A model generated the notes under the pieces. The model did not search any database. It worked only from the letters and a program-made list of their open reading frames with translations, and was not told the origin of the DNA. Below are positions 42,248 through 54,971 of a stretch of DNA of 64,000 nucleotides, one piece after another (the stretch's first letter is position 1; each line of letters starts with the position of its first letter). This stretch comes from Acidobacteriaceae bacterium KBS 146. Its GTDB lineage: Bacteria > Acidobacteriota > Terriglobia > Terriglobales > Acidobacteriaceae. Made by a program: the position numbers and the translations under genes. The stretch lies in NCBI GenBank assembly GCA_000688615.1, contig JHVA01000001.1, forward strand, positions 2,170,001-2,234,000, read 5' to 3'.

Positions 42248-42324
42248 CGGGACGTGGCTCAGCCTGGTAGAGCGCACCCTTGGGGTGGGTGAGGTCGCTA
42301 GTTCGAATCTAGTCGTCCCGACCA
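42248..42324 (+). tRNA. tRNA-Pro (anticodon GGG)
   Basis: A 77-nt cloverleaf. The acceptor stem CGGGACG pairs with CGTCCCG and the encoded ACCA end is present. D arm: GCTC...GAGC. Anticodon arm: CACCC-TTGGGGT-GGGTG, with anticodon GGG at the middle of the 7-base loop. T arm: GCTAG-TTCGAAT-CTAGT. C1:G72 is typical of bacterial tRNA-Pro. The last 15 bases before the final A are duplicated at 51130, marking an integration site. Confidence 0.97.
42309..42323 (+). repeat. attL-like direct repeat within tRNA-Pro
   Basis: CTAGTCGTCCCGACC, the 3' T-stem/acceptor part of tRNA-Pro, is repeated exactly and in the same orientation at 51130-51144. This is the usual footprint of tyrosine-recombinase integration at a tRNA gene. 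Confidence 0.7.
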
Positions 42325-42604: not shown

Positions 42605-42840
42605 GTCAACTAAAGAGTACTCACCCGTTCTCGATGACTGATTCGGCGACGTATCAACGATTGAGATAGAAGAGCAACACTCCGCACCAAGGCGTCGCTG
42701 GGCCTCGTGGATTTTGTTATCCGTCCGGAGGCGGCACGCGGTACTGATCTTCCTCTGAGCGAAGACGTGCACTCCGTGGTCAGAGGCGAAGACGACAACC
42801 GCGTCGTCGATCGAATCTATGGACCGTGCCTCTGAACCTT
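42605..42840 (-). pseudogene. Decayed C-terminal sulfatase-like fragment
   Basis: Conceptual translation of the minus strand gives IDSIDDAVVVFASDHGVH, close to the sulfatase block DDTIVVFTSDHG. After a frame change it gives PRAASGRITKSTRPSDALVR, which resembles the VRAPG...SDALVESVDL stretch that follows in family S1 sulfatases. The frame is then broken again. If correct, a sulfatase gene downstream of the lyase has been lost. No start, catalytic Cys/Ser region or intact frame remains. Confidence 0.3.
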
Positions 42841-42856
42841 TGACATCGACAATACT

Positions 42857-45022
42857 TCACTTTACATAATGGTGCAGATCAAGCTCTTCATTATTCGAGA
42901 ATCTGTCCGATAGGTGTGGCCCTTTAACCGAGAATTGGCCCGCTGGATCCTCTTCAAGTGTTAGATGCTGTTGCGTATCAGTCACCTGCTCATCTTTTAC
43001 TGCGATCAATGCTCCAAATGAAACAGAGGTGCCAGACCTTCGTACGATCACAAATGGGACCGGCGACTGAGAACTTTTGCTTGGTGCGTTCCCGGTAATG
43101 ACTTCCGTCTTTGCAGCGGGCAGCATCTGCAGATCGAGTTCTACCTTTGTGCCTGGAATTATTGGTTTCGGAGATGGTGGTTTCGCTGAGTAGTAGGTTG
43201 CAGGAGTGCTGTTGGATTCCGACTTCGACTGGATCCTTCGAGGACCGCTCACAAAGCGAACGGCGATAGCATCTGACGTCACTCCGTGCATAGTGTTTGA
43301 CAGATGCTGGTACCCATTTGTGGCTGTCAAAGTGTAGGACTCTGTCTTCAGTGGGCTGACCAACGATTCTGTTCCTATGTTGTGATAAGCCCAGTCATAG
43401 GTATGCGGCTGGCCGTCGGCGGATTCGCAGCGGTCGGCGATCAGAACATAGTTGCTTGTCAGAAGAATGGTTCGCTGAAGACGTGCCGTCGCATAGGCAG
43501 CACCTGCATCTGCACGGACTGCGACCCAGTCATCGCCGACGTGCCAGTCTAATAACTTTCCGGTCGAAGCAGATTGCCGCTGCTGATCTACAGAGATCGT
43601 GTTGTGTGCGATAGTCATTGAATCCCACTCGCGGTGAATTGGAATTCCGTAAGGATGGGTCCCGGGATCGATAGCAAGCACTTGTCCATGCGAGTAGAGA
43701 ACAAAATTAAGTTTGTCGAAGTGCCCATGAGCTCCGCCATGAGGGCCAAACTTCATAACGACTGTCAGATCGGTTTTCGAAGAACGGAGGGCGGCATAAC
43801 CCGCCTCTCGGAAGACCGTGCTAACCAGCTTTGGTGGAGCTGCGTGTGGCAGCCGTTCGACTCCGAAGAGGAATGCCTCACGATCGGATCGCGCTCCGTG
43901 TTCGATTACAGTAAGCAAAGCAGGATCTGAGGTCCCTGCGTATGCGACTTCGTAGAGATAGTCCTGTTCATACAGATCGGGCGATCCGCTGTCGTTGAAG
44001 GCCGGCAGCTTGCCATCGGGGAGCATCACACCCAGAGGAGAGTGGAAGAGTGCGACCAGATTCGGTTCCTGCTTCCACAAATTGATCCCTTTTCGCGCCG
44101 CCATCTGCGCTGTCATCGTAAGTGGGCGCATAGCATAAAACTGGTAGCCCCATGCCCCTTCTGCCCAAAATCCTTCAGTGACGAACCGATGCATCTGATA
44201 CCGGAAACCGATCGGCCCGTCGATGGCTTCCTTGATCAAAGCCTGATCGTTGAGGGTAAATCCAACTGCAGCTGCTGCGCCATTGATCCACGACTGAATA
44301 TTGTAGGTTGGTTCTTTATGAGCTTTGAGCACCATCGCCGCCGAAGCGCGCAGGACATCCGCCTCAATCGCCTGCTTCTCTTGGGCAGAGAGCGTGTCCG
44401 CTCCACGGATGAGGTCGTAAGTCCATGCGATCTTGATCAGCCAGATAGATTCATCCAGAGTCTGCGCATATGCCTTAGCGCCGTTTGGGCCTGATCTCCC
44501 ATTGATGTCGTGCAGCTTATAAGTCGGATACACACGAGCATAGGCATTCAAGATCTTTGCGGCTTTCTGCGCATACTCTTCTTTGTGCGTAAATCGAAAC
44601 GCCAGTCCAAGAGCGACAGCCGCTTCTGCCAATGCATCATTCCTGAGCTGATAGACAACATGATCATACGGATAGCCGGAATAATTCTTTCCAGAGTCAG
44701 GACAGATGTTCTGATCGGGAGGAATGAACTGAAGTGCTCTTCCCGTCTCTGGACAAGCGTACCAATGAAGCCACTGTCCACCCTCAGCCGGAGGAGCGGC
44801 GTCGGTCAGACCGAATCTTCGGTTGTAGGAGCTTGGAAAATCGTCAGCCTCTTTGATCAGTGCAGCAAGACTGGCTTTGGCCCATGGCTCGCGCTCCGCA
44901 ACCTGCTGTCGTACTTTGAAGTCTTCCTCAGACATGAAGAGTGAAGGAGATTGGCCGTGGATATAGCCAAAAGCATGCAGCAGAAGGAACGTCACGCAGA
45001 TGGGGTAGTACCAAGAACGCAT
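42857..45022 (-). CDS. Heparinase II/III- and alginate-lyase-like polysaccharide lyase
   Basis: A 721-residue protein with a signal peptide (YYPICVTFLLLHAFGYIHG). The N-terminal half is an alpha-barrel of the alginate-lyase type (YAQTLDESIWLIKIAWTYDL, NIQSWINGAAAAVGFTL with the conserved Asn), and the C-terminal half is a heparinase II/III-like beta-sandwich with KFGPHGGAHGHFDKLNFVLY and AIDPGTHPYG. This combination is found in PL15/PL17-type lyases, which cleave uronic-acid polymers or oligomers by beta-elimination in the periplasm. The exact polymer cannot be told. It lies 103 bp downstream of a TonB receptor on the same strand and within the putative island. Confidence 0.85.
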   Translation of the reverse strand: MRSWYYPICVTFLLLHAFGYIHGQSPSLFMSEEDFKVRQQVAEREPWAKASLAALIKEADDFPSSYNRRFGLTDAAPPAEGGQWLHWYACPETGRALQFIPPDQNICPDSGKNYSGYPYDHVVYQLRNDALAEAAVALGLAFRFTHKEEYAQKAAKILNAYARVYPTYKLHDINGRSGPNGAKAYAQTLDESIWLIKIAWTYDLIRGADTLSAQEKQAIEADVLRASAAMVLKAHKEPTYNIQSWINGAAAAVGFTLNDQALIKEAIDGPIGFRYQMHRFVTEGFWAEGAWGYQFYAMRPLTMTAQMAARKGINLWKQEPNLVALFHSPLGVMLPDGKLPAFNDSGSPDLYEQDYLYEVAYAGTSDPALLTVIEHGARSDREAFLFGVERLPHAAPPKLVSTVFREAGYAALRSSKTDLTVVMKFGPHGGAHGHFDKLNFVLYSHGQVLAIDPGTHPYGIPIHREWDSMTIAHNTISVDQQRQSASTGKLLDWHVGDDWVAVRADAGAAYATARLQRTILLTSNYVLIADRCESADGQPHTYDWAYHNIGTESLVSPLKTESYTLTATNGYQHLSNTMHGVTSDAIAVRFVSGPRRIQSKSESNSTPATYYSAKPPSPKPIIPGTKVELDLQMLPAAKTEVITGNAPSKSSQSPVPFVIVRRSGTSVSFGALIAVKDEQVTDTQQHLTLEEDPAGQFSVKGPHLSDRFSNNEELDLHHYVK

Positions 45023-45125
45023 TCTCTAAGCCTCTTTGTGGTTAGTCGATACCGCTACACACGACTCTATTTTGGTGCAGAGTGATCGGAAGACAGCTAC
45101 TTCTTCTTTCGATCACCCGCAAGCT

Positions 45126-48100
45126 CTAGAAGTTCAACCGGGTGACGATCTGGAGGAATCGGTTTGACGTCGATCCAGTGATCAAGCCGAACGAAGGTGC
45201 GTTGAAGTAAGCGCGAGTCGCATCGGTCGTCAAACCGAGCGACGTTCCAGGATTCCCAAGGCTGTTGTGATTAAGCACATTGAATGCATCCACGCGGAAG
45301 ACGAACGCAAGCTTCTCGTGGATCGGAAAGCTCCGCGAGACGGAGATGTCCAAGTTGACCTCGCCGGGTGCGCGAACGCTATACCGTCCTACATTGCCCA
45401 GTGCGGTGTCCACCACCTGCTTTCGGGCGGCTCCTGTTCCAATGAAGACCGGTCCGCTCGGAGTAAGTGGAAAGTTCGGATCACTCGTCGGAGTGAAGTA
45501 CTGGATGCCCGAACCATTTCGATAAGGAGTGACTTTCAGGCGCGACACATCACCGTTGGGACGCTGACTGCCAACGCCAGGAAAGACGTTGGATTGAGTG
45601 ATCGTCAGAGGGAAGCCTGAGCGAGCGCTGAAGATCGGACTGATCACAATCTTGCGAAGGTACCAGGGGCCGCGCGTCGTGTACTGAACGGCCAGTGTGA
45701 GGTTGTTCCGCACATCGTACGCTGAAGCGCTACGCTCCTGTGTCCGCCGAATGGCGGAATCGGAGGGGTATTGTCCTGAGTTGATACCGTTTGCCTGAGA
45801 GAAGTTGAAGATGCCGGAACCATCGTCGATCGTGTGCGACCACGTGTAAGCACTTTGCAGCGAGAAGGAACTGCCAAACCGTCTTCGCGCAGTCACCTGG
45901 AGGCTGTTGTAGCTGGAACTGCCTACGTTATACGATCCCGTAAGAGTGCCGAGCGTTGGGAACGGACGGGCATTCTGTGTTGCAAGGGTGGTGTTCGCAT
46001 AAGCGACCGATGTTGCCTGATTGAAGGCCGGCAAATTGTTGTTGAGGTATAGCGGAAGATGGACGGCGTGGCTGCCTACGTACCCAATTTCGATAACCGT
46101 GCCGCTAATCAGCGACTGCTGGACACTGGCATTCCACTGTTGGTTCAAACTCAGAGGGTTGATGCTCTGGTAAGAGACTCCGCCCGCATTGAATGGGTTG
46201 GAGGGAGATGCCGTGGCCAGGGCCACCTGCGGGTTGTCGAGGTCCTGTACGCCGGTCAAGGGCATCCCCTGAGTCAGGGTGAACGGCTGTGCAACACGTG
46301 TTCCAAGGTTGTTGAACGAAACGGGCACGTCGTATCCGGGGAATGAGACCTGTCCACCCAGATTCGACATGATCTGGCCGTAGAAGGTTCCAAAGCCGGC
46401 GCGAACTACCGTCTGACTTGTTGCCGCGAAAGACAAGCCGATTCGCGGAGAGAAGTTCAACTTGGAGGAGTCGATGTTGAGGGTACGCGAAGCATTCTTG
46501 TTCGCTACTAAAAGCACGCCGGTTTGACCATCGAAGCGACTGTAACGATCAGTCGCGATATACATTGGCGACTCATAGTCATACCGAACGCCAAGGTTGG
46601 CCGTCAGGCGCGGAGTCAAGCGAAGGTCGTCCTGCACATACCCCCCCACGTTGAAGTTGCGTCGGCCAAGAAGCGGCTGGGGGATCGCATAGTTCGCGGT
46701 CTTCACCTGTCCGAGCAGGAAATCAGCAAGCGTATTAGTCGCTTTTCCGCCGGAACCGGTGATGTCGGTGATCGATCCATTAAAACTGTAAGACCCCTGG
46801 AAGGCAGAACCTGTGTTGAAGACATTCACCTGGTTCTTGCGGAGTAGAGCTCCGACCTTGAAGGTATTTCTGCCGATCACTTTTGTGACCGATCCATAAG
46901 GGGTAAAGGTATTGCTGTAGGTCTGGCTGGTCGATCCCCCTGAAGCACCAAAGCTGCTGAAACTGCCGATGTTGACGCTGGGAGTTTCGCGGAAGGGGTT
47001 ACGCTGAATACCGACCGTTTGTGCGGGATCAGTTCCGTAGCTCGCTGCAGTACGTTCTTCCACCCAACGATTGAAACCGAAGCGGACATCGACCACGGTC
47101 GTCGGATTGACCGTGACAGTTCCGCCGGTAACAGCCTGCCAGCCCTGATCGCAGTTACAACCAAATGACGTAGCGAGGATAGGGTTGTTAAACGCAAGCC
47201 CCTGAACTGTGGCAGCGATCCACCGATTGACGCTCCCAAACAAACGGACCTTCTCGCCTATCGAATGGTCGATGCGCCCAGAATAACGTGGAGCTCTGTA
47301 TGGCACAGACTGCTGGAAGACATAGTTATTGGTGTAGCGGTTGCTGACGTTATCGTAGGTTCCGGTGGTATTAGGAAGAGGCATCAGCGCCATAAAGTTC
47401 TTGGCGGCCGTATCGATTCGGCTAGCTGGTATTTTGTTGCCGGGGAAGGGCCGGTTCGTTAGCGGATCGTAAACCGTGACTGGGGACGAGGAGAAGTCCC
47501 CTGAACGAAAGGCGGCTGAAGGAACGGTCTGAGTCTGGGATGCCGGACTACGCTGCAGGGTTTGGTCGTAGTTGAGATAGAAGAACGTTCGCTCTTTGCC
47601 GTTGTAAATCTTAGGCACAATCACGGGACCGCTCAGCACGACTCCGAACTGATTGTAGTTATTGGCTGGCCGCTTCAACACCGGGGTCTGCAGCTTGTTC
47701 GCGAAGCTGTTTGCATTCAACACGGCATTACGGAACAGTTCGTAAACACCCACATGGAAGGTACTGTTTCCGCTGCGGGTCAACATGGTGACAACGCCAC
47801 CTGAGGTTCTCCCATACTCCGCCGGGGCGTTCGAGGTGATGATGCGAAATTCGCCAAGCATATCCGGAGACGGCAGGCGGCTGATCTGGCCGGTGACACC
47901 TTCCACGACGGAGTTGCCGTCCAGCAAAGTCTCGGAGTTGAGGGTACGGCTGCCATTGATGGACAGCTGGGCGGAGTTGACGTTGGTCGACGCGCCGCCG
48001 TGAACGACACCTGGCGCCAGAGCAATCAAGTTCGTGATCTCGCGGTTGGGAAGCGGCAGGTTTTGTACATCGCTTGGGCTGATGAGGGTGCTGACCGTTG

Positions 48101-48491
48101 CATCGCTGCGGTTGAGATCTTCGGCCTGCGCGGTGACGACGAGCGTCTCACCGACATTTCCAACCTGCAGAGTTACCGGGACGTCGACGCGCGAGGCGAC
48201 GAAGAGCTGAACTGGGGATTCAGTCCGCCGAAACCCGGCAGCCTCTACTACGAGCTTGTAGTTGCCTGGAGGGAGCTGAAGCGCTGTGTAGTTCCCGTGG
48301 CTATCACTGGTCGTGTGAGCGACCTCTGCCCCGGTCGCCAGATTGACCAAGGTAAGCGTTGCTGCGGGCACAACCGCCCCGCTTGAATCGCTGACCGTTC
48401 CTGAAAGTCTGGCCGAGGTATCCTGAGCCACCAGGGAGATTGAAGTCACCGCCAGAAAAACTGCCAAGGCAAAGAGCCGAAAGTTGAACAT
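45126..48491 (-). CDS. Oar-like TonB-dependent receptor (island copy)
   Basis: A 1121-residue outer-membrane receptor with AAGGAG nine bases before the ATG and a signal segment FRLFALAVFLAVTSISLVAQ. A carboxypeptidase-regulatory domain (RLSGTVSDSSGAVVPAATLT, LPPGNYKLVVEAAGFRRTE) precedes the plug with VQNLPLPNREITNLIALAPG. The barrel ends in RFLQIVTRLNF. It belongs to the same broad family as the receptor at 10051 but differs throughout, so it is not a recent duplicate. Next to the lyase at 42857 it probably imports the lyase's oligosaccharide products or substrate. No SusD partner. Confidence 0.93.
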   Translation of the reverse strand: MFNFRLFALAVFLAVTSISLVAQDTSARLSGTVSDSSGAVVPAATLTLVNLATGAEVAHTTSDSHGNYTALQLPPGNYKLVVEAAGFRRTESPVQLFVASRVDVPVTLQVGNVGETLVVTAQAEDLNRSDATVSTLISPSDVQNLPLPNREITNLIALAPGVVHGGASTNVNSAQLSINGSRTLNSETLLDGNSVVEGVTGQISRLPSPDMLGEFRIITSNAPAEYGRTSGGVVTMLTRSGNSTFHVGVYELFRNAVLNANSFANKLQTPVLKRPANNYNQFGVVLSGPVIVPKIYNGKERTFFYLNYDQTLQRSPASQTQTVPSAAFRSGDFSSSPVTVYDPLTNRPFPGNKIPASRIDTAAKNFMALMPLPNTTGTYDNVSNRYTNNYVFQQSVPYRAPRYSGRIDHSIGEKVRLFGSVNRWIAATVQGLAFNNPILATSFGCNCDQGWQAVTGGTVTVNPTTVVDVRFGFNRWVEERTAASYGTDPAQTVGIQRNPFRETPSVNIGSFSSFGASGGSTSQTYSNTFTPYGSVTKVIGRNTFKVGALLRKNQVNVFNTGSAFQGSYSFNGSITDITGSGGKATNTLADFLLGQVKTANYAIPQPLLGRRNFNVGGYVQDDLRLTPRLTANLGVRYDYESPMYIATDRYSRFDGQTGVLLVANKNASRTLNIDSSKLNFSPRIGLSFAATSQTVVRAGFGTFYGQIMSNLGGQVSFPGYDVPVSFNNLGTRVAQPFTLTQGMPLTGVQDLDNPQVALATASPSNPFNAGGVSYQSINPLSLNQQWNASVQQSLISGTVIEIGYVGSHAVHLPLYLNNNLPAFNQATSVAYANTTLATQNARPFPTLGTLTGSYNVGSSSYNSLQVTARRRFGSSFSLQSAYTWSHTIDDGSGIFNFSQANGINSGQYPSDSAIRRTQERSASAYDVRNNLTLAVQYTTRGPWYLRKIVISPIFSARSGFPLTITQSNVFPGVGSQRPNGDVSRLKVTPYRNGSGIQYFTPTSDPNFPLTPSGPVFIGTGAARKQVVDTALGNVGRYSVRAPGEVNLDISVSRSFPIHEKLAFVFRVDAFNVLNHNSLGNPGTSLGLTTDATRAYFNAPSFGLITGSTSNRFLQIVTRLNF

Positions 48492-48708
48492 AAGGTAAAA
48501 CTCCTTCTAGGATTCGGAACTGACATACACTGACCAACGGCTCCGAAAACTGACAAGGGTTTAGCTCCGAAAACATTGCTAATCACAAGTGAAACGCTGA
48601 TTAAAAAGGACTTCCACCTTCCTGTGTGAGACTGGGGCCGCTCTTGCTTGCCCGAAAGGTCCGGGTTCATGTAGCGTCAAAACTGCTCAATCAAGGCTCT
48701 GTACAACT

Positions 48709-50100
48709 TTGGCAACCACCGTTCCCCCATCTCGCGGCCGAATAGAGAACCCCTCCGGGTACGAAGAGGTCCAGGAGGTCCAGACAGAGGATCCACTGTC
48801 TGGGGAACTGTCATCCAGCGATGAGAGATTGCAGGCCGTGGAAAGGATCGCTGGAAGCGAACCCTTTCAAAAATCCAGTCGCCTCCCTGCCCTGCTGCGC
48901 TACCTTGCCATCTGCACTCTGCAAAATGACAGGTCTGGGCTGATGGAACAGGCTATCGGTCGCGCCGTCTTCGGCAAGCCAAGGGACTTCAACCCAGCAG
49001 AAGACAGCTCAGTGAGGGTGTACATGCGCCAATTACGTCTGCGCCTTCACGAGTATTACCAAAACTCAGGGCCGGGCGAGAAGATCGTCATTGAGATCCC
49101 GAAAGGCGGCTATGCGCTCGCCTTCCATCGCCGGCAGATACCAACCCTGAGCTTGGAACAAGGCGCACCTGAGATCGTGCCTGTGGACGGCCAGGCTCAG
49201 AGCAATGGATTCGCCTCACCATGGCAGCAGATAAGCCGATGGGTTCCATGGTTGCTCGTGGCCGCATCTTTGTTGCTGGCAATAACGGGCTGGTTCCGCG
49301 GGTCTCGAATGGTCAATTCCAATGCCCCGGTCTGGCCAATCAGTCAGGTTATCCAGCCGGGTCAACAAACGACTTTGGTTTTGGCTGATGCCAGCTATGT
49401 TCTCCATCTATTAGGTGACCGTGAGATACCCCTCGATGAATATGCGGATCGGCATTACTCGGATCGCCTGATCCCAAAAGATGCCAGCGAGGGAGAACTC
49501 CGTCTTTTTCACTATCTCCAGCTATCCCAGATAACCTCGATGGCCGACGCTCGGGCCGCCTTTGAAGTCTCGGCCCTTGCCGGATCCCAAAGGGACAACA
49601 TCGCCATACGCTCCGCTAAGGAGCTCAATGGCAACATACTCTCAAACGGCAATTTCATCTTTGTCGGAGCTCATACTTCGAATCCGTGGGTCCAGCTCTA
49701 TCAGGACCAACTGAACTTCCGCCTTGCAGATGGTGGGACGAACAGCAATCGCTCTATTGAGAATCGCTCTCCCCGGCCGGGCGAACAAAACTCTTACTCC
49801 ATCACTGAATCTACCGGTCATTCCGGCGATGACTACGCCACGATCTCACTGGTCCCGGGTAGAGGTCAGCAAGGCGATGCTCTGCTTGTTCAGGGGATTC
49901 GTCTTGAGGGGACTGACGCAGCCATCCGTTTTCTGGCTAGCTCGGACAGCAGAAATCAGATGATGCAGAAGCTGAAGTCGGCCAACGGCGGTGCCCTCCC
50001 TCGCTATTTTGAGATATTGCTTCATGCGCACTCTGTTGCTGGTTCGCCGGCTACGATTGACTGTATTGCCGCGCGTTCTGTGCTTCCTTCGCGGGACTGA
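48709..50100 (+). CDS. Membrane-anchored winged-helix-type regulator
   Basis: A 463-residue protein apparently starting at TTG (no ATG or GTG fits). Residues 40-145 form a helix-rich DNA-binding-like domain with FGKPRDFNPAEDSSVRVYMR and IPKGGYALAFHRRQ, a pattern repeated in many Acidobacteriota proteins with a wHTH followed by a membrane anchor. One transmembrane helix (WVPWLLVAASLLLAITGW) follows at about 178-195. The remaining extracytoplasmic part, about 260 residues, is not recognised; it may sense a ligand as in CadC-type regulators. It is divergent from the TonB receptor/lyase pair, separated by 217 bp, so it is the likely regulator of that pair. Confidence 0.65.
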   Translation: MATTVPPSRGRIENPSGYEEVQEVQTEDPLSGELSSSDERLQAVERIAGSEPFQKSSRLPALLRYLAICTLQNDRSGLMEQAIGRAVFGKPRDFNPAEDSSVRVYMRQLRLRLHEYYQNSGPGEKIVIEIPKGGYALAFHRRQIPTLSLEQGAPEIVPVDGQAQSNGFASPWQQISRWVPWLLVAASLLLAITGWFRGSRMVNSNAPVWPISQVIQPGQQTTLVLADASYVLHLLGDREIPLDEYADRHYSDRLIPKDASEGELRLFHYLQLSQITSMADARAAFEVSALAGSQRDNIAIRSAKELNGNILSNGNFIFVGAHTSNPWVQLYQDQLNFRLADGGTNSNRSIENRSPRPGEQNSYSITESTGHSGDDYATISLVPGRGQQGDALLVQGIRLEGTDAAIRFLASSDSRNQMMQKLKSANGGALPRYFEILLHAHSVAGSPATIDCIAARSVLPSRD

Positions 50101-50436: not shown

Positions 50437-51048
50437 TTGGAGTTCAATGCTCGCCTCTTTGCGCCGTTTGACCCCTCTCATCTGTTTTTCCTTGGTAGCA
50501 CTTTCGCTGATGGACAAATACCTACTTCCTCCACACCTCTGCAAACTTCCAGTTCAACCGCCGTCCGGCTGCAGCGGCTCCCTTTGGCCTTTGAACAGAA
50601 TGTGGGCCAAGCTGCAATCGGAACGGACTATCTGATTCGTTCCGGCATCTTGCTGGCGAGCTGAATGCGACACGGATACGCCTGTCACTGCCCTCTTCAG
50701 ACGGGTTCGAGCAACAGGTCTCCATTCACCTGGACGCAGCACGACAAGATGCAAAACCAATCGCAACGGAAAATCTAGCGGGAGAGTCGAACTATCTGCT
50801 GGGTGAGAATCATTCGGCCTGGCACACCCATGTGCAGCGGTATGGACGCGTGACATATCCAGAGATCTACAACGGGATCGACCTCACTTATTATGGCAAT
50901 GGCTCTCAGGTAGAACAGGACTTCATCGTGCATCCGGGAGCAACGCCTTCCAGCATTCGCCTGCACTTCGACGGTGGTCTACTCAACGTTTATTGGCGGC
51001 AGCGTCAACCCCTACGGATCTGCAAGCAATGATCAATCTGTCGCGCAA
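50437..51048 (+). pseudogene. Broken SBBP-type repeat protein, N-terminal part
   Basis: The frame encodes LPLAFEQNVGQAAIGTDYLI, the usual start of SBBP/DUF7948 proteins, then stops. After a frameshift near 50650 the sequence continues with AGESNYLLGENHSAWHTHVQ, VTYPEIYNGIDLTYYGNGSQ and VEQDFIVHPGATPSSIRLHF, all typical of that family. A further frame change yields TFIGGSVNPYGSASNDQSVA before a stop. The usual several-hundred-residue repeat part is absent, so the gene carries at least two frameshifts and a large deletion. Its original role, probably a cell-surface protein, is lost. Confidence 0.7.
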
Positions 51049-51129: not shown

Positions 51130-51144
51130 CTAGTCGTCCCGACC
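51130..51144 (+). repeat. attR-like direct repeat
   Basis: CTAGTCGTCCCGACC, identical to 42309-42323 inside tRNA-Pro, but without the rest of the tRNA. It marks the right border of the putative island. Confidence 0.7.
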
Positions 51145-51234: not shown

Positions 51235-52191
51235 TTACGCAGAGATCGAGATTGGCCCTGTCGCCTGCGAAGTACCATTAGATGCGAAGACGCTTCGATT
51301 CCGTCCTCGAGCCTTCGCTTGGTACAGGGCTGTATCCGCTTCCGCAAGTATCAGCTCCAGCGGTAAGTCGACGGCAGCCTTCCCGCATGTGGTTCCACCA
51401 ATGCTGATAGTTATGGAGATTACAAGGTCATCTATCAACAGAGGGGAATCGGCAATCGAACGACGTAGCGCTTCGGCCCGCACCTCAAGGCTCGCCGTGT
51501 CGCAGTCACTCAGCACGATCAAAAACTCTTCTCCACCGTATCGTCCAACCGCGTCATATCCTCGAACCTCATCCTTGAAGCGCTTGGCAACTTCTTCGAG
51601 TATTTGGTCCCCGATTATATGACCATAGTTGTCGTTCACGCTCTTGAAGTGATCGACATCGCACAACAGCAACGAGACAGGGCGCAGTTCCCGGGCACCT
51701 CGCTGCAACTCGCTGCGTACGAGCGACAGAATCGATGCTCGATTCCATATCCCGGTGAGAGCATCATGTGTCGCACGATAGCGCATCTCCTCACGAGCCT
51801 TCACCAGCCTATCTTCGAGCGATAGGATGCGATGCCCGGTATGCAGACGCGCCCGCAACTCGGCCATCTGGCACGGCTTGGTCAAGTAATCGTCCGCCCC
51901 AGCTTCCAAACCGGCCACAACGTCTTCACTGCTCTGCTTTGAAGTGAGCAGGATGATGTAGACGTAGGGCGTATCGCGATGCTGTGCCCGCATCTCACGA
52001 CATAGCGAGGGGCCGTCCAGCTCCGGCATCATCCAATCGATCAGCGCCAGCCTCGGCGCATCATGCTGGGAGAGAATCTCCACCGCTTGGCGTCCATCCT
52101 CAGCCAGCACGACTTCATACCCAAATTTCGTCAGTGTCCGCTGCATCAGCAGGCGGGATACCCGATCATCTTCAGCCACCAGAATTTTCAT
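51235..52191 (-). CDS. Response regulator with GGDEF diguanylate cyclase domain
   Basis: A 318-residue protein. Residues 1-120 are a receiver domain with phosphoacceptor Asp52 ([12 protein letters not shown]) and Lys105 in DYLTKP. Residues 135-300 are a GGDEF domain with an intact active site GGEEF (219-223) and an inhibitory I-site RGYD at 210-213, five residues upstream. It should make cyclic-di-GMP on phosphorylation and be feedback-inhibited. It overlaps the upstream hybrid kinase by four bases (ATGA), so the two are translationally coupled and very probably partners. Confidence 0.93.
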
Positions 52192-54971
52192 TGGAATGAC
52201 ACCCCGGCAAGGGCTTCGAGTGCGCCCGTTACGTGCTCGATCTCGCGCGCCAGTTGATCTAGAGTCCTTTGCGCGTGGTTAAGATCGCATTCTCTCCCCA
52301 TGGACTCCAGTTCATGGGCCAGCGATGAGGCCTGCTTCGCCGATAGATTGCCAAGCGCACCTTTAAGGGTGTGTCCCGCACGTTCGAGCTCGATGAAGTT
52401 TTGCCCTTCAATCGCTTTCTGCGCTGCGTTCAGGTGATTGGGATAATCTGCGCGGAATAGTTCCACAAGTTCACCCAGCAACGCGCGGTCATCATCCAGC
52501 AGGTCCAGCAATTGCTTGGTATCCACGGGGCCGACAGCAGCAGACTCTACTTCCACCGATGGCACGGACGTTTCTTTCTGCGTGATGTAAATATCCAACA
52601 GATCGTCGAGCTCCTGTGGCCGAATCGGCTTCGACAGATACCCATCCATCCCAACCGCGAGGCACCGTTCACGATCGCCGTTCATCGCCAGCGCTGTCAT
52701 CGCCACCACGGGTTGATGTTTCCCTGTGCCCTGCTCCCTCTGACGCAGCAGCGTGGTGGCCTCGAACCCATCCATCTCAGGCATCTGCATATCCATCAGC
52801 ACGAGGTCATAGCTCGCCTGTTCCAGAGCCGCGAGTGCTTCTTTACCATTTGCTACCAGGACGACGGTGTGGTTCCTCTTCTCCAGCATCCGTGTCGCCA
52901 GCTTCTGATTGATCGGGTTATCTTCCGCCAGCAGGATTCTCAGCATTTTGTTTGGCCTCGTCTGTTCGCGCAGCGTATGGCGCGTGATCATCGCAGTCTC
53001 TCCGTTCGTCTCACGTGCCGAGAGCACCCTTGCAATCGCCTCGCGTAGCTCCGCCTGACGCACGGGCTTCAACAGATACGCTGCGATTCCCAACTCGCCG
53101 CACCGCTGCGCGTCGCCTCGCTGCCCGCCCGAGGTCAACATCATGATCGTCGAGCTATTGGTTCCTGAATGCTCCTGGAGTCGTTCCACCAATCCAAATC
53201 CATCCATCTTCGGCATATGCATGTCTGTCAGGATGAGCCCGAACGGTTCTCCATTAGCCGTCGCTTCGCGATAGGCCTGAAGGGCCAGTTCTCCATTGGC
53301 TGCCACTGCAGGAATCATTCCCCACCGTGTGACAAGACCCTCCAGAATCCGGCGGTTGGTGCGATTGTCATCCACAATCAGCACACGCACGCCGACCAGG
53401 ATCGACGACGCGACCTGCGGTTGCGCTAACGCCGGCATGGTCTTCGGCTCGCCCAGCTTCGCGGTAAAGTGGAAGCAGGATCCCTTACCCGGCGTGCTCT
53501 CCACCCAGATGCGTCCATTCATCATCTCCACCAGTCGGCGCGAGATCGTCAAACCCAATCCAGTTCCGCCAAATTCGCGGGTTGTCGAAGTATCTGCTTG
53601 GCTGAACGATTCAAATATCTTCTCCAGTTTGTCCGCTGAGATCCCTATCCCGGTATCCGTAACCTGAAAATGCAACGTTGAGCTCTGATCCTCCAGAACC
53701 TCCCGCTGTACCTTGAGGGTTACTTCGCCGTTTTCAGTGAACTTAACTGCATTTCCGAGAAGGTTCAGAATCACCTGACGCAATCGACCTGGGTCGCCAT
53801 TCACCAGCGGCGGAACATCGGAGGCAATCTCACATAAAAGCTCCAGCCCCTTCTCATCGGCGCGCAGAGCCACGGTCTTCAGAGCGTTTTCGACGCACTC
53901 ACACAGGTCGAAATCCACTTCGTCCAGATCGACCTTTCCTGCTTCGATCTTCGAGAAATCCAGGATGTCGTTGATCACATTCAACAGCGCGTCCGCAGAA
54001 AGCTTCACGGTATGCAGGTAGTCTCGCTGCTCTCGTGTCAGTTCCGTCTCGAGCGCCAGATCGGTCATACCGATGATCCCGTTGAGGGGTGTGCGGATTT
54101 CGTGACTCATATTGGCGAGAAACTCACTCTTCGCCTGATTGCTCAGCTCCGCCGCGTGCGCCCGCTCTCGCTCCAGTTCGATGAAGTGCCTCTGCTCCGC
54201 CAGTGTCAGCTCCATCGTATGAATCGACAACTTCCGATCCACTGTTGCCGACACATAAACAAATCCCATCAGGAAAGCCGCGACCATACAGATCCCGACA
54301 ATTCCCAGATGCGTTACTCCGATCGCATGCCGCATGCTTTCAGGCTGCATCGTCATGGGAGTAAAGGTCACCGCGGCCATCCCTACGTAGTGCATGACCG
54401 GGATCGCAAGCCCCATCACGACAGCACATCCGCTCTTACGCCAACTCCAGCTGGTCTGCACCTCCCGGATGGCAAACGCCAGGAGCAATGCCACAAAAGA
54501 GATCACAATCGCCAGAACGACGGATAGTATCACCAGGCGCATGTTGTACTGGCACATCGCCGGCAGTCGCATTGCCTCCATGCCGATGTAGTGCATGGAG
54601 GCAATTCCGGTTCCCATAAAGAGACTTCCGACCGCGGCCGAGGCAATCGACATTCGCCTACGGCTTACTACAAACAGCGCGATCGCTGACGCCACAACGG
54701 CTGCCATCATCGACAGCAGCACCATCGGCCAGTCGTACAACACAACGACTGGAAGCCGCAGTGCCTCCATCCCCACGTAGTGCATCGACCAGATGCCGAA
54801 ACCAAGAGCGAAAGCCCCACCGCTCAGCCATACTCCACGCACAAAGCCTCGCGATGCCGTCACCCGGCCTGCCAGATCCAGCGCAGCGTATGCCGCAAAA
54901 ATGGCGATGAGTACGGAAAGTGCTACCAGGCGATAGTCATACGTCCCGGCCAAAATGGTTGTTGTCTCCAC
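52188..54971 (-). CDS. MHYT-domain hybrid histidine kinase with two receivers and Hpt
   Basis: A 927-residue sensor kinase from a GTG. Residues 1-245 are an integral-membrane MHYT sensor with three MHY(V/I)GM motifs near 63, 126 and 193, whose residues are proposed to bind copper and sense O2, CO or NO. HisKA follows with His290 ([10 protein letters not shown]), HATPase with LLGNAVKF and GGTGLGL, receiver 1 with Asp583 ([10 protein letters not shown]), receiver 2 with Asp727 ([11 protein letters not shown]) and a C-terminal Hpt with His867 ([11 protein letters not shown]). All phosphorelay residues are intact. The phosphate most likely ends on the coupled GGDEF regulator, linking the signal to c-di-GMP. 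Confidence 0.95.

Follow-up and report, generated by a model that had tools for sequence, protein, structure and literature searches.

The window analysed here, 64,000 nucleotides of the genome of the soil bacterium Acidobacteriaceae bacterium KBS 146 (contig JHVA01000001.1, positions 2,170,001 to 2,234,000), contains an 8.8-kb segment with the genes of a secreted lyase, a TonB-dependent receptor and a divergently oriented, membrane-anchored regulator (also called the sensor below), bounded by a 15-bp direct repeat, CTAGTCGTCCCGACC, which is the 3' end of a tRNA-Pro(GGG) gene. We read this segment, with a probability of roughly 60%, as a tRNA-integrated glycan-uptake cassette with a ToxR-like switch driving a receptor-lyase operon. 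A self-contained cassette would have integrated at the tRNA-Pro(GGG) 3' end, its recombinase having been lost or never carried inside the repeats; the receptor would import an oligosaccharide, and the secreted lyase would cut a uronate-containing chain by beta-elimination. The regulator would act as a one-component switch with a cytoplasmic OmpR-type winged helix, one transmembrane helix and a BcsB/flavodoxin-like outer domain, which would signal that substrate is available, through binding of the sugar or through contact with the periplasmic face of the receptor. Once activated, the regulator would bind a conserved block at 48550-48606 and turn on the receptor-lyase operon, probably together with its own gene. 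It is one of many related regulators in the bacterial family of the host, which stand on the promoter side of such receptors, while the enzymes behind the receptors vary; the trio would be one cargo of this chassis. The features are as follows (window coordinates, strand, feature, basis):

42248-42324, plus: tRNA-Pro (anticodon GGG), its 3' end being the left repeat (ARAGORN)
42309-42323, plus: left att-like repeat CTAGTCGTCCCGACC (repeat search, shuffles, genome-wide count)
42857-45022, minus: secreted lyase, 721 aa (list of open reading frames (ORFs), Pfam, alignment to structures of polysaccharide lyase family 17 (PL17))
45126-48491, minus: TonB-dependent receptor, 1121 aa (ORF list, Pfam)
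48550-48606, no strand: conserved 57-bp intergenic block, candidate operator/promoter (six-genome alignment)
48709-50100, plus: membrane-anchored regulator (sensor), 463 aa, TTG start (ORF list, aligned starts, model)
48823-49131, plus: sensor residues 39-141, winged helix of OmpR/PhoB type by fold (model)
49231-49305, plus: sensor residues 175-199, predicted helix taken as transmembrane (model; hydrophobic stretch in sequence)
49312-50097, plus: sensor residues 202-463, outer domain, fold like the C-terminal part of BcsB (model)
51130-51144, plus: right att-like repeat CTAGTCGTCCCGACC (repeat search, shuffles, genome-wide count)

A repeat-bounded segment with three genes

The three ORFs are intact and are the only genes between the repeats. 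The repeat occurs exactly twice in the whole 5-Mb genome, both copies on the same strand, and two matches were obtained in none of 100 shuffles of the window (mean 0.02 matches). The island described in the original prediction is thus real as a repeat-bounded segment, and the ORF coordinates and the predicted structure agree with the gene trio, its divergent winged-helix membrane protein included, that it had placed there. No integrase or recombinase was found between the repeats (ORF list for 42.3-51.1 kb, with the non-coding stretches read in six frames by eye), and no SusD, sigma/anti-sigma or two-component partners were seen there (ORF list, Pfam).

The lyase matches PF07940 (E 9.9e-26) and PF05426 (E 2.7e-16), with an alginate-lyase-like N-terminal part followed by a heparinase II/III C-terminal part; the receptor matches PF25183 (OMP_b-brl_4; E 1.9e-180, residues 238-1114) and PF13620 (CarboxypepD_reg; E 4e-17, residues 29-109). 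Receptor and lyase genes are separated by 103 bp (76-112 bp in four other trios of the same order), a distance that would fit a single transcript, and a terminator scan of 44800-48800 returned no site between them. In the polysaccharide utilisation loci of Bacteroidota, where SusC/SusD are accompanied by a hybrid two-component system (HTCS) or SusR, a TonB receptor, an enzyme and a membrane sensor likewise share one locus. The trio resembles these loci in combining a TonB receptor with a carbohydrate enzyme and a sensor of its own; it differs from them in that no SusD-like gene was seen in it, the receptor is OMP_b-brl_4/Oar-like and the sensor is a one-component winged-helix protein.

Two decayed stretches lie inside the segment. 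Between the sensor gene and the right repeat (50550-51030, plus strand), broken frames mark a decayed gene; a motif in them suggests that it encoded the N-terminal part of a protein of the SBBP-repeat type. Downstream of the lyase (42690-42850, minus strand), short broken frames include a stretch 'VVFASDHG', presumably reminiscent of sulfatases, and are a possible remnant of a further cassette enzyme.

Spread of the trio and the tRNA-Pro(GGG) site

Among 200 genomes of the order, sampled from a larger group, a homologue of the lyase is encoded in 11, and orthologues of the sensor (at least 453 bits; next best 343) in KBS 146 itself and in G177, G101, G037, G047 and G078. A receptor orthologue stands beside the sensor orthologue in all six genomes (receptors 78-92% identical to one another). 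The exact order with the lyase behind the receptor was found in five of the 11 lyase genomes, KBS 146 included; the sixth, G078, is rearranged: its lyase, 46-49% identical, flanks the sensor opposite the receptor, and the receptor is followed by a GH2 (glycoside hydrolase family 2) enzyme. The arrangement thus recurs in the same order in four other genomes and rearranged in a fifth, as the original prediction had proposed to check, and is therefore not a chance neighbourhood. That the three genes travel together, as had also been suggested, is supported by the constant pairing of receptor and sensor, by flanking genes that differ between trio loci and by the att-like repeats at the segment studied here, and we infer movement as one cassette.

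We compared 18 loci of the genus, that of KBS 146 among them; in 12, the KBS 146 locus included, tRNA-Pro(GGG) follows a gene that we take to be RNase R-like, and the genes after the tRNA differ in all. Large serine recombinases (PF00239, PF07508) start at the tRNA-Pro 3' end in two relatives (L131, 1049-2611; L140, reversed, 1244-2692), and another sensor-receptor pair of the same families, with the same divergent layout, lies at this site in G010 (L130, 5004-10055). tRNA-Pro(GGG) is a hotspot. Like tRNA-targeted genomic islands in general, the segment is bounded by a direct repeat of the tRNA 3' end and has serine recombinases at the same tRNA in relatives; unlike these, it has no recombinase inside and comprises only 8.8 kb.

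A second repeat copy at the tRNA was found only in KBS 146 among the 18 loci, and the site in relatives is occupied by differing genes. The right flank in KBS 146 (51.2-58 kb) is not at the site in any of the other 17 loci, except for a 29%-identical GH92 piece in L139, and the history of the site must therefore include more than one insertion. Just to the right of the island (51235-54971, minus strand) lie a response regulator-GGDEF gene and a hybrid kinase with an MHYT sensor domain (Pfam); close homologues of this kinase elsewhere in the genus are located away from the tRNA-Pro site.

The receptor, lyase and sensor of KBS 146 are closest to those of G177, which belongs to another genus (85, 73 and 65% identity), whereas the values for the genus mate G101 are 83, 67 and 60%. 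Two marker proteins, which we presume to be RNase R-like and PlsX-like, point in the opposite direction (63% to G177 and 71-79%, in two pieces, to G101 for the former; 73% and 84% for the latter). The tree of receptor plus sensor joins KBS 146 and G177 as sisters (100/99) and rejects a grouping of KBS 146 with its genus mate G101 (p 0.0015); in the lyase tree such a grouping has p 0.032 and the branch is open. The repeat, the patchy occurrence of the trio and a conflict among gene trees, which depends in part on a single metagenome bin, support acquisition. An ORF beside the trio in G177 (L051, 10381-11616) was considered as an integrase and rejected, as it matches only a PLD-like domain, and weakly.

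The regulator, its family and a candidate operator

The regulator has no match in Pfam (E 0.1), NCBIfam (E 1) or PHROGs (E 1), and sequence searches of the Protein Data Bank (PDB) had no hit below E 0.57 for the single sequence or below E 1 for a profile built from 25 sequences. Its TTG start is supported by the aligned starts in G177 (TTG) and in G037 and G047 (ATG). The predicted structure (AlphaFold2, 19 sequences) comprises a winged helix at about residues 39-141, a long helix at 175-199 and an outer part at about 202-463; the helix lies in a hydrophobic stretch and is taken as a single transmembrane helix between winged helix and outer domain. ToxR and CadC are membrane one-component regulators with an N-terminal OmpR-type winged helix, one transmembrane helix and a C-terminal outer domain, and their genes lie beside the target operon. 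The window's regulator would share this architecture, according to the model, and adjoins a target operon presumed from gene position; it differs in its BcsB-like outer domain, in the lack of a Pfam match and in belonging to a hugely expanded family tied to TonB receptors.

Modelled alone (18 sequences), the outer domain reached a pLDDT of 84.1 and a pTM of 0.85. Its best structural relatives are chains of BcsB, the periplasmic subunit of cellulose synthase (Z 12.6, root-mean-square deviation 3.3, 168 aligned residues, BcsB 536-726; Foldseek E 4.1e-4), followed by the N-terminal domains of GH115/GH67 alpha-glucuronidases (Z about 9) and an archaeal S-layer anchoring domain (8.8). BcsB is described as two repeated units, each with a carbohydrate-binding-like domain and a flavodoxin-like one (PMC11379886); residues 536-726 would then correspond to the second flavodoxin-like domain. 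The likeness to BcsB is one of fold, with 10% identity and no profile similarity (PF03170, the Pfam model of BcsB, has no match in the regulator), and the fold here forms the outer part of a DNA-binding regulator. The same general fold is shared with the N-terminal domains of GH67, GH115 and GH84 and with the S-layer anchoring domain 9fsa (Z 7.5-9.4, near the level of common arrangements), which are, however, parts of enzymes or surface proteins. The outer part of about 260 residues had been called unrecognised, with structural prediction proposed as a check; this description holds at the level of sequence (Pfam and PDB searches) and fails at the level of fold.

Homologues of the sensor were detected at E 1e-10 in 152 of the 200 genomes. 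For the family analysis, loci were taken around sensor homologues chosen from this search and around eight paralogues from KBS 146; they are not mutually independent. The nearest receptor is divergent from 43 of 59 sensor genes (35 within 1 kb), codirectional with the sensor upstream at 15 (5 within 1 kb), convergent at one and never codirectional with the receptor upstream, so that it turns its 5' end toward the regulator in 58 of the 59 cases. A separate scan of named genomes, several of which overlap with this set, found a divergent receptor in 17 of 18 acidobacterial loci. Distances between sensors and between receptors are correlated over 43 distinct pairs (Mantel correlation 0.61-0.67, with none of 2000 permutations as high), also when the trio group is left out (0.58-0.67).

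Within KBS 146, six of eight sensors lie at most 3.5 kb from one of the 64 receptors among the matches listed, compared with 13% at random (p 1.3e-4). For this control 65 receptors were scored, the best of 102 candidates, and 64 were entered, the one on contig 2 being left out; the chance rate is underestimated because only receptors among the matches listed were used, and one beside a sensor (L063) is missing. In a neighbourhood search of the same genome, every one of the eight sensors had a receptor no more than 2.6 kb away, in one case convergent. With its family positioned 5' of receptors, control of the receptor operon is the natural reading for the regulator. The original prediction of a sensor that is the receptor's own partner is upheld as to position throughout the family, and it is from this position that regulation would follow.

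Directly behind the receptors, 16 of 36 genes belong to lyase or glycoside-hydrolase families (five trio lyases, two each of GH2, GH31 and GH130, and one each of GH5, GH65-like, GH89, GH95 and GH106), and others encode 2H-phosphodiesterases (four), DUF218 proteins (three), a metallophosphoesterase and tetratricopeptide repeats (one each). At L083, L091, L100 and L106 the gene after the sensor-receptor pair encodes a 2H-phosphodiesterase (DUF1868) whose N-terminus looks Tat-like by eye, and at L084, L085 and L086 it encodes a DUF218 protein; cassettes with a DUF1868 or DUF218 gene may not be for polysaccharides. At L072 (8181-10984) and L115 (7842-10645), two sensor-receptor pairs stand back to back with their sensors tail to tail. 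The outer domain was detected at E 1e-8 in five of seven genomes of the host's family and in one of 73 other genomes of the phylum. The DNA-binding half of the sensor also occurs in a Melioribacteraceae protein with no receptor nearby (L129, 7995-9215) and in other proteins on rhizobial plasmids. Plasmid-borne close relatives of the sensor were sought and rejected: 184 plasmid records match, mostly to the DNA-binding half, with identity below 60% in every case and no match that spans 80% of the length. We found no description in the literature of a regulator family tied to acidobacterial TonB receptors, nor of how acidobacteria choose among dozens of these receptors, which does not establish absence in print.

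The intergenic region between sensor and receptor contains one 57-bp block (48550-48606) that is conserved in all six trio-type genomes, with CAAG, TTAG and TTG...GT.A invariant. This candidate operator has TTG.TAA, GTGAAA and TGAT.A elements about 11 bp apart; in G037 the block reads ACATTGTTAAGACATTGTTAAATATTGATA, with repeats 11 bp apart. GTGAAA is enriched in the regions between sensor and receptor, occurring in 23 of 38 as opposed to 64 of 334 intergenic regions elsewhere (p 2e-7, 2032 six-mers compared). The same holds for ACTGTAT (10 of 38 and 7 of 334; p 4.4e-7, 5759 seven-mers compared); the 38 regions are partly related. When counts are pooled, the maximum falls at a lag of 11 bp (36 six-mers, 4.2 expected); lag-11 repeats reach 2.21 per kb compared with 0.38 in control regions, and occur in 10 of 38 compared with 14 of 140 regions (p 0.013).

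Alternative explanations and meaning for the family

Several observations weigh against the proposed cassette and switch. The winged-helix model (39-141) resembles the OmpR-type proteins RpaA, SaeR, CovR and ArlR with Z 6.1-6.5, a range that the tool calls common, and RpaA, the best PDB sequence match of the sensor profile, has only E = 1. Homology of the outer domain to BcsB was rejected at the sequence level, as hhalign gave a probability of 0 when the domain was compared with 18 BcsB-containing ORFs from acidobacteria, truncated where the loci end. A tandem 11-bp operator common to the family was likewise rejected, as per sequence and with mismatches lag 11 reached p 0.016 at best and lags 8, 18 and 26 did equally well; of the operator evidence, we retain only the six-genome footprint and the enrichment of GTGAAA. 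Among the genes behind receptors, 11 of 36 have no Pfam match and 9 belong to other families, and 'polysaccharide' is therefore unproven for the family as a whole. Five lyase genomes have no sensor-receptor pair near the lyase: in G008 it follows an unrelated receptor of the same family, and in G165, G121 (two lyase copies), G172 and G064 no receptor or sensor is present in the 11-20 kb fetched around it. Finally, the conflict between the trees depends on G177; in this metagenome bin the trio sits on a 15-kb contig, so that mis-binning is possible.

Alternatively, the trio might be an old, vertically inherited and often lost locus, immobile in itself, with the att-like repeat marking an unrelated or earlier insertion. 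The missing integrase would suit this explanation, as would the complex site history implied by a right flank that none of the 17 relatives' loci shares, and a receptor/sensor tree without G177 would not conflict with genus membership. However, receptor identity without G177 is flat across the genus border (83% between KBS 146 and G101, 82% between KBS 146 and either G037 or G047 of the other genus), while the markers fall from 84 to 71-72% (PlsX-like) and from 71-79 to 59-60% (RNase R-like) on going from G101 to G037 and G047; in addition, the variable flanks and the absence of the 15-mer from the rest of the genome argue against it, and we consider vertical inheritance unlikely, though far from negligible. 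That the regulator controls other genes and lies beside the receptor incidentally is very improbable, given the 58 of 59 family members located 5' of their nearest receptor and the conserved intergenic block.

With respect to the substrate, the lyase can be compared with the PL17 oligoalginate lyases Alg17c (4ojz/4nei) and Smlt2602, with which it shares the two-domain layout, the Asn and acid Tyr (Alg17c Asn201 and Tyr258, aligned with N241 and Y293) and the HGHFDKL motif (H432-L438). It differs from them by DPGTHPYG in place of the Arg438/Tyr450 region and by I242 at the position of the neutralising His (Alg17c His202), which leaves the Asn and His pair characteristic of PL17 incomplete; Ile occupies this position in 10 of the 12 homologues in the alignment (the lyase of the window among them), with one Trp and one sequence that cannot be aligned there. 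Against the NCBIfam oligoalginate-lyase model NF042990 the lyase scores 108 bits, compared with a cut-off of 1400. In Smlt2602, replacement of the neutralising His by Phe is reported to have lowered alginate activity and created activity on poly-glucuronate (poly-GlcA) (PMC4765187). Alginate, named in the original prediction, is therefore not favoured, and the exchange of His for Ile weakly suggests a GlcA polymer in its stead. Glucuronan or a similar polymer of glucuronate is a reasonable candidate, as is some other GlcA-containing chain from plants, fungi or bacteria, with the lyase as a divergent relative of PL17, although this reading stays somewhat short of even odds; Ile differs from Phe, one residue cannot give the substrate, and the closest solved structures are still alginate lyases.

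As to the signal, regulation by receptor loading is known from FecA and FecR, where it is sensed through contact between receptor and regulator. The outer domain might similarly bind the receptor rather than sugar, sensing its loading via the plug or the CarboxypepD_reg domain, FecA-FecR-like in one protein. This would agree with the co-variation of sensor and receptor distances, in which the outer domain of distant pairs follows the plug (0.37) more than the barrel (0.29) and the N-terminal domain (0.08); moreover, BcsB is an inner-membrane protein-assembly subunit (PMC11379886) and is not known to be a signal receptor. However, the winged helix co-varies with the plug as well (0.28, distant pairs), so that co-variation may only mean inheritance as one unit, the weakest link is to the N-terminal domain, the obvious partner, and the best folds (BcsB- and alpha-glucuronidase-like) come from carbohydrate-handling proteins. 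We regard contact with the receptor as a possibility to be taken seriously, although appreciably less probable than even.

For the host's family within the Acidobacteriota, we tentatively suggest a set of lineage-specific one-component membrane regulators in which a BcsB/alpha-glucuronidase-type fold would read the glycan and an OmpR-type winged helix would fire the TonB receptor-enzyme operon. This might represent a third solution beside HTCS/SusR and sigma/anti-sigma systems, with an interchangeable sensor-receptor chassis that could be swapped together with its enzyme at tRNA hotspots such as tRNA-Pro(GGG). If each regulator is indeed wired to the adjoining receptor, the neighbouring gene would give the regulon and the enzyme behind the receptor would hint at the glycan. 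The outer domain could then be tested as a glycan sensor whose fold is known. For testing this wiring between regulator and receptor, no case is smaller or cleaner than the trio.

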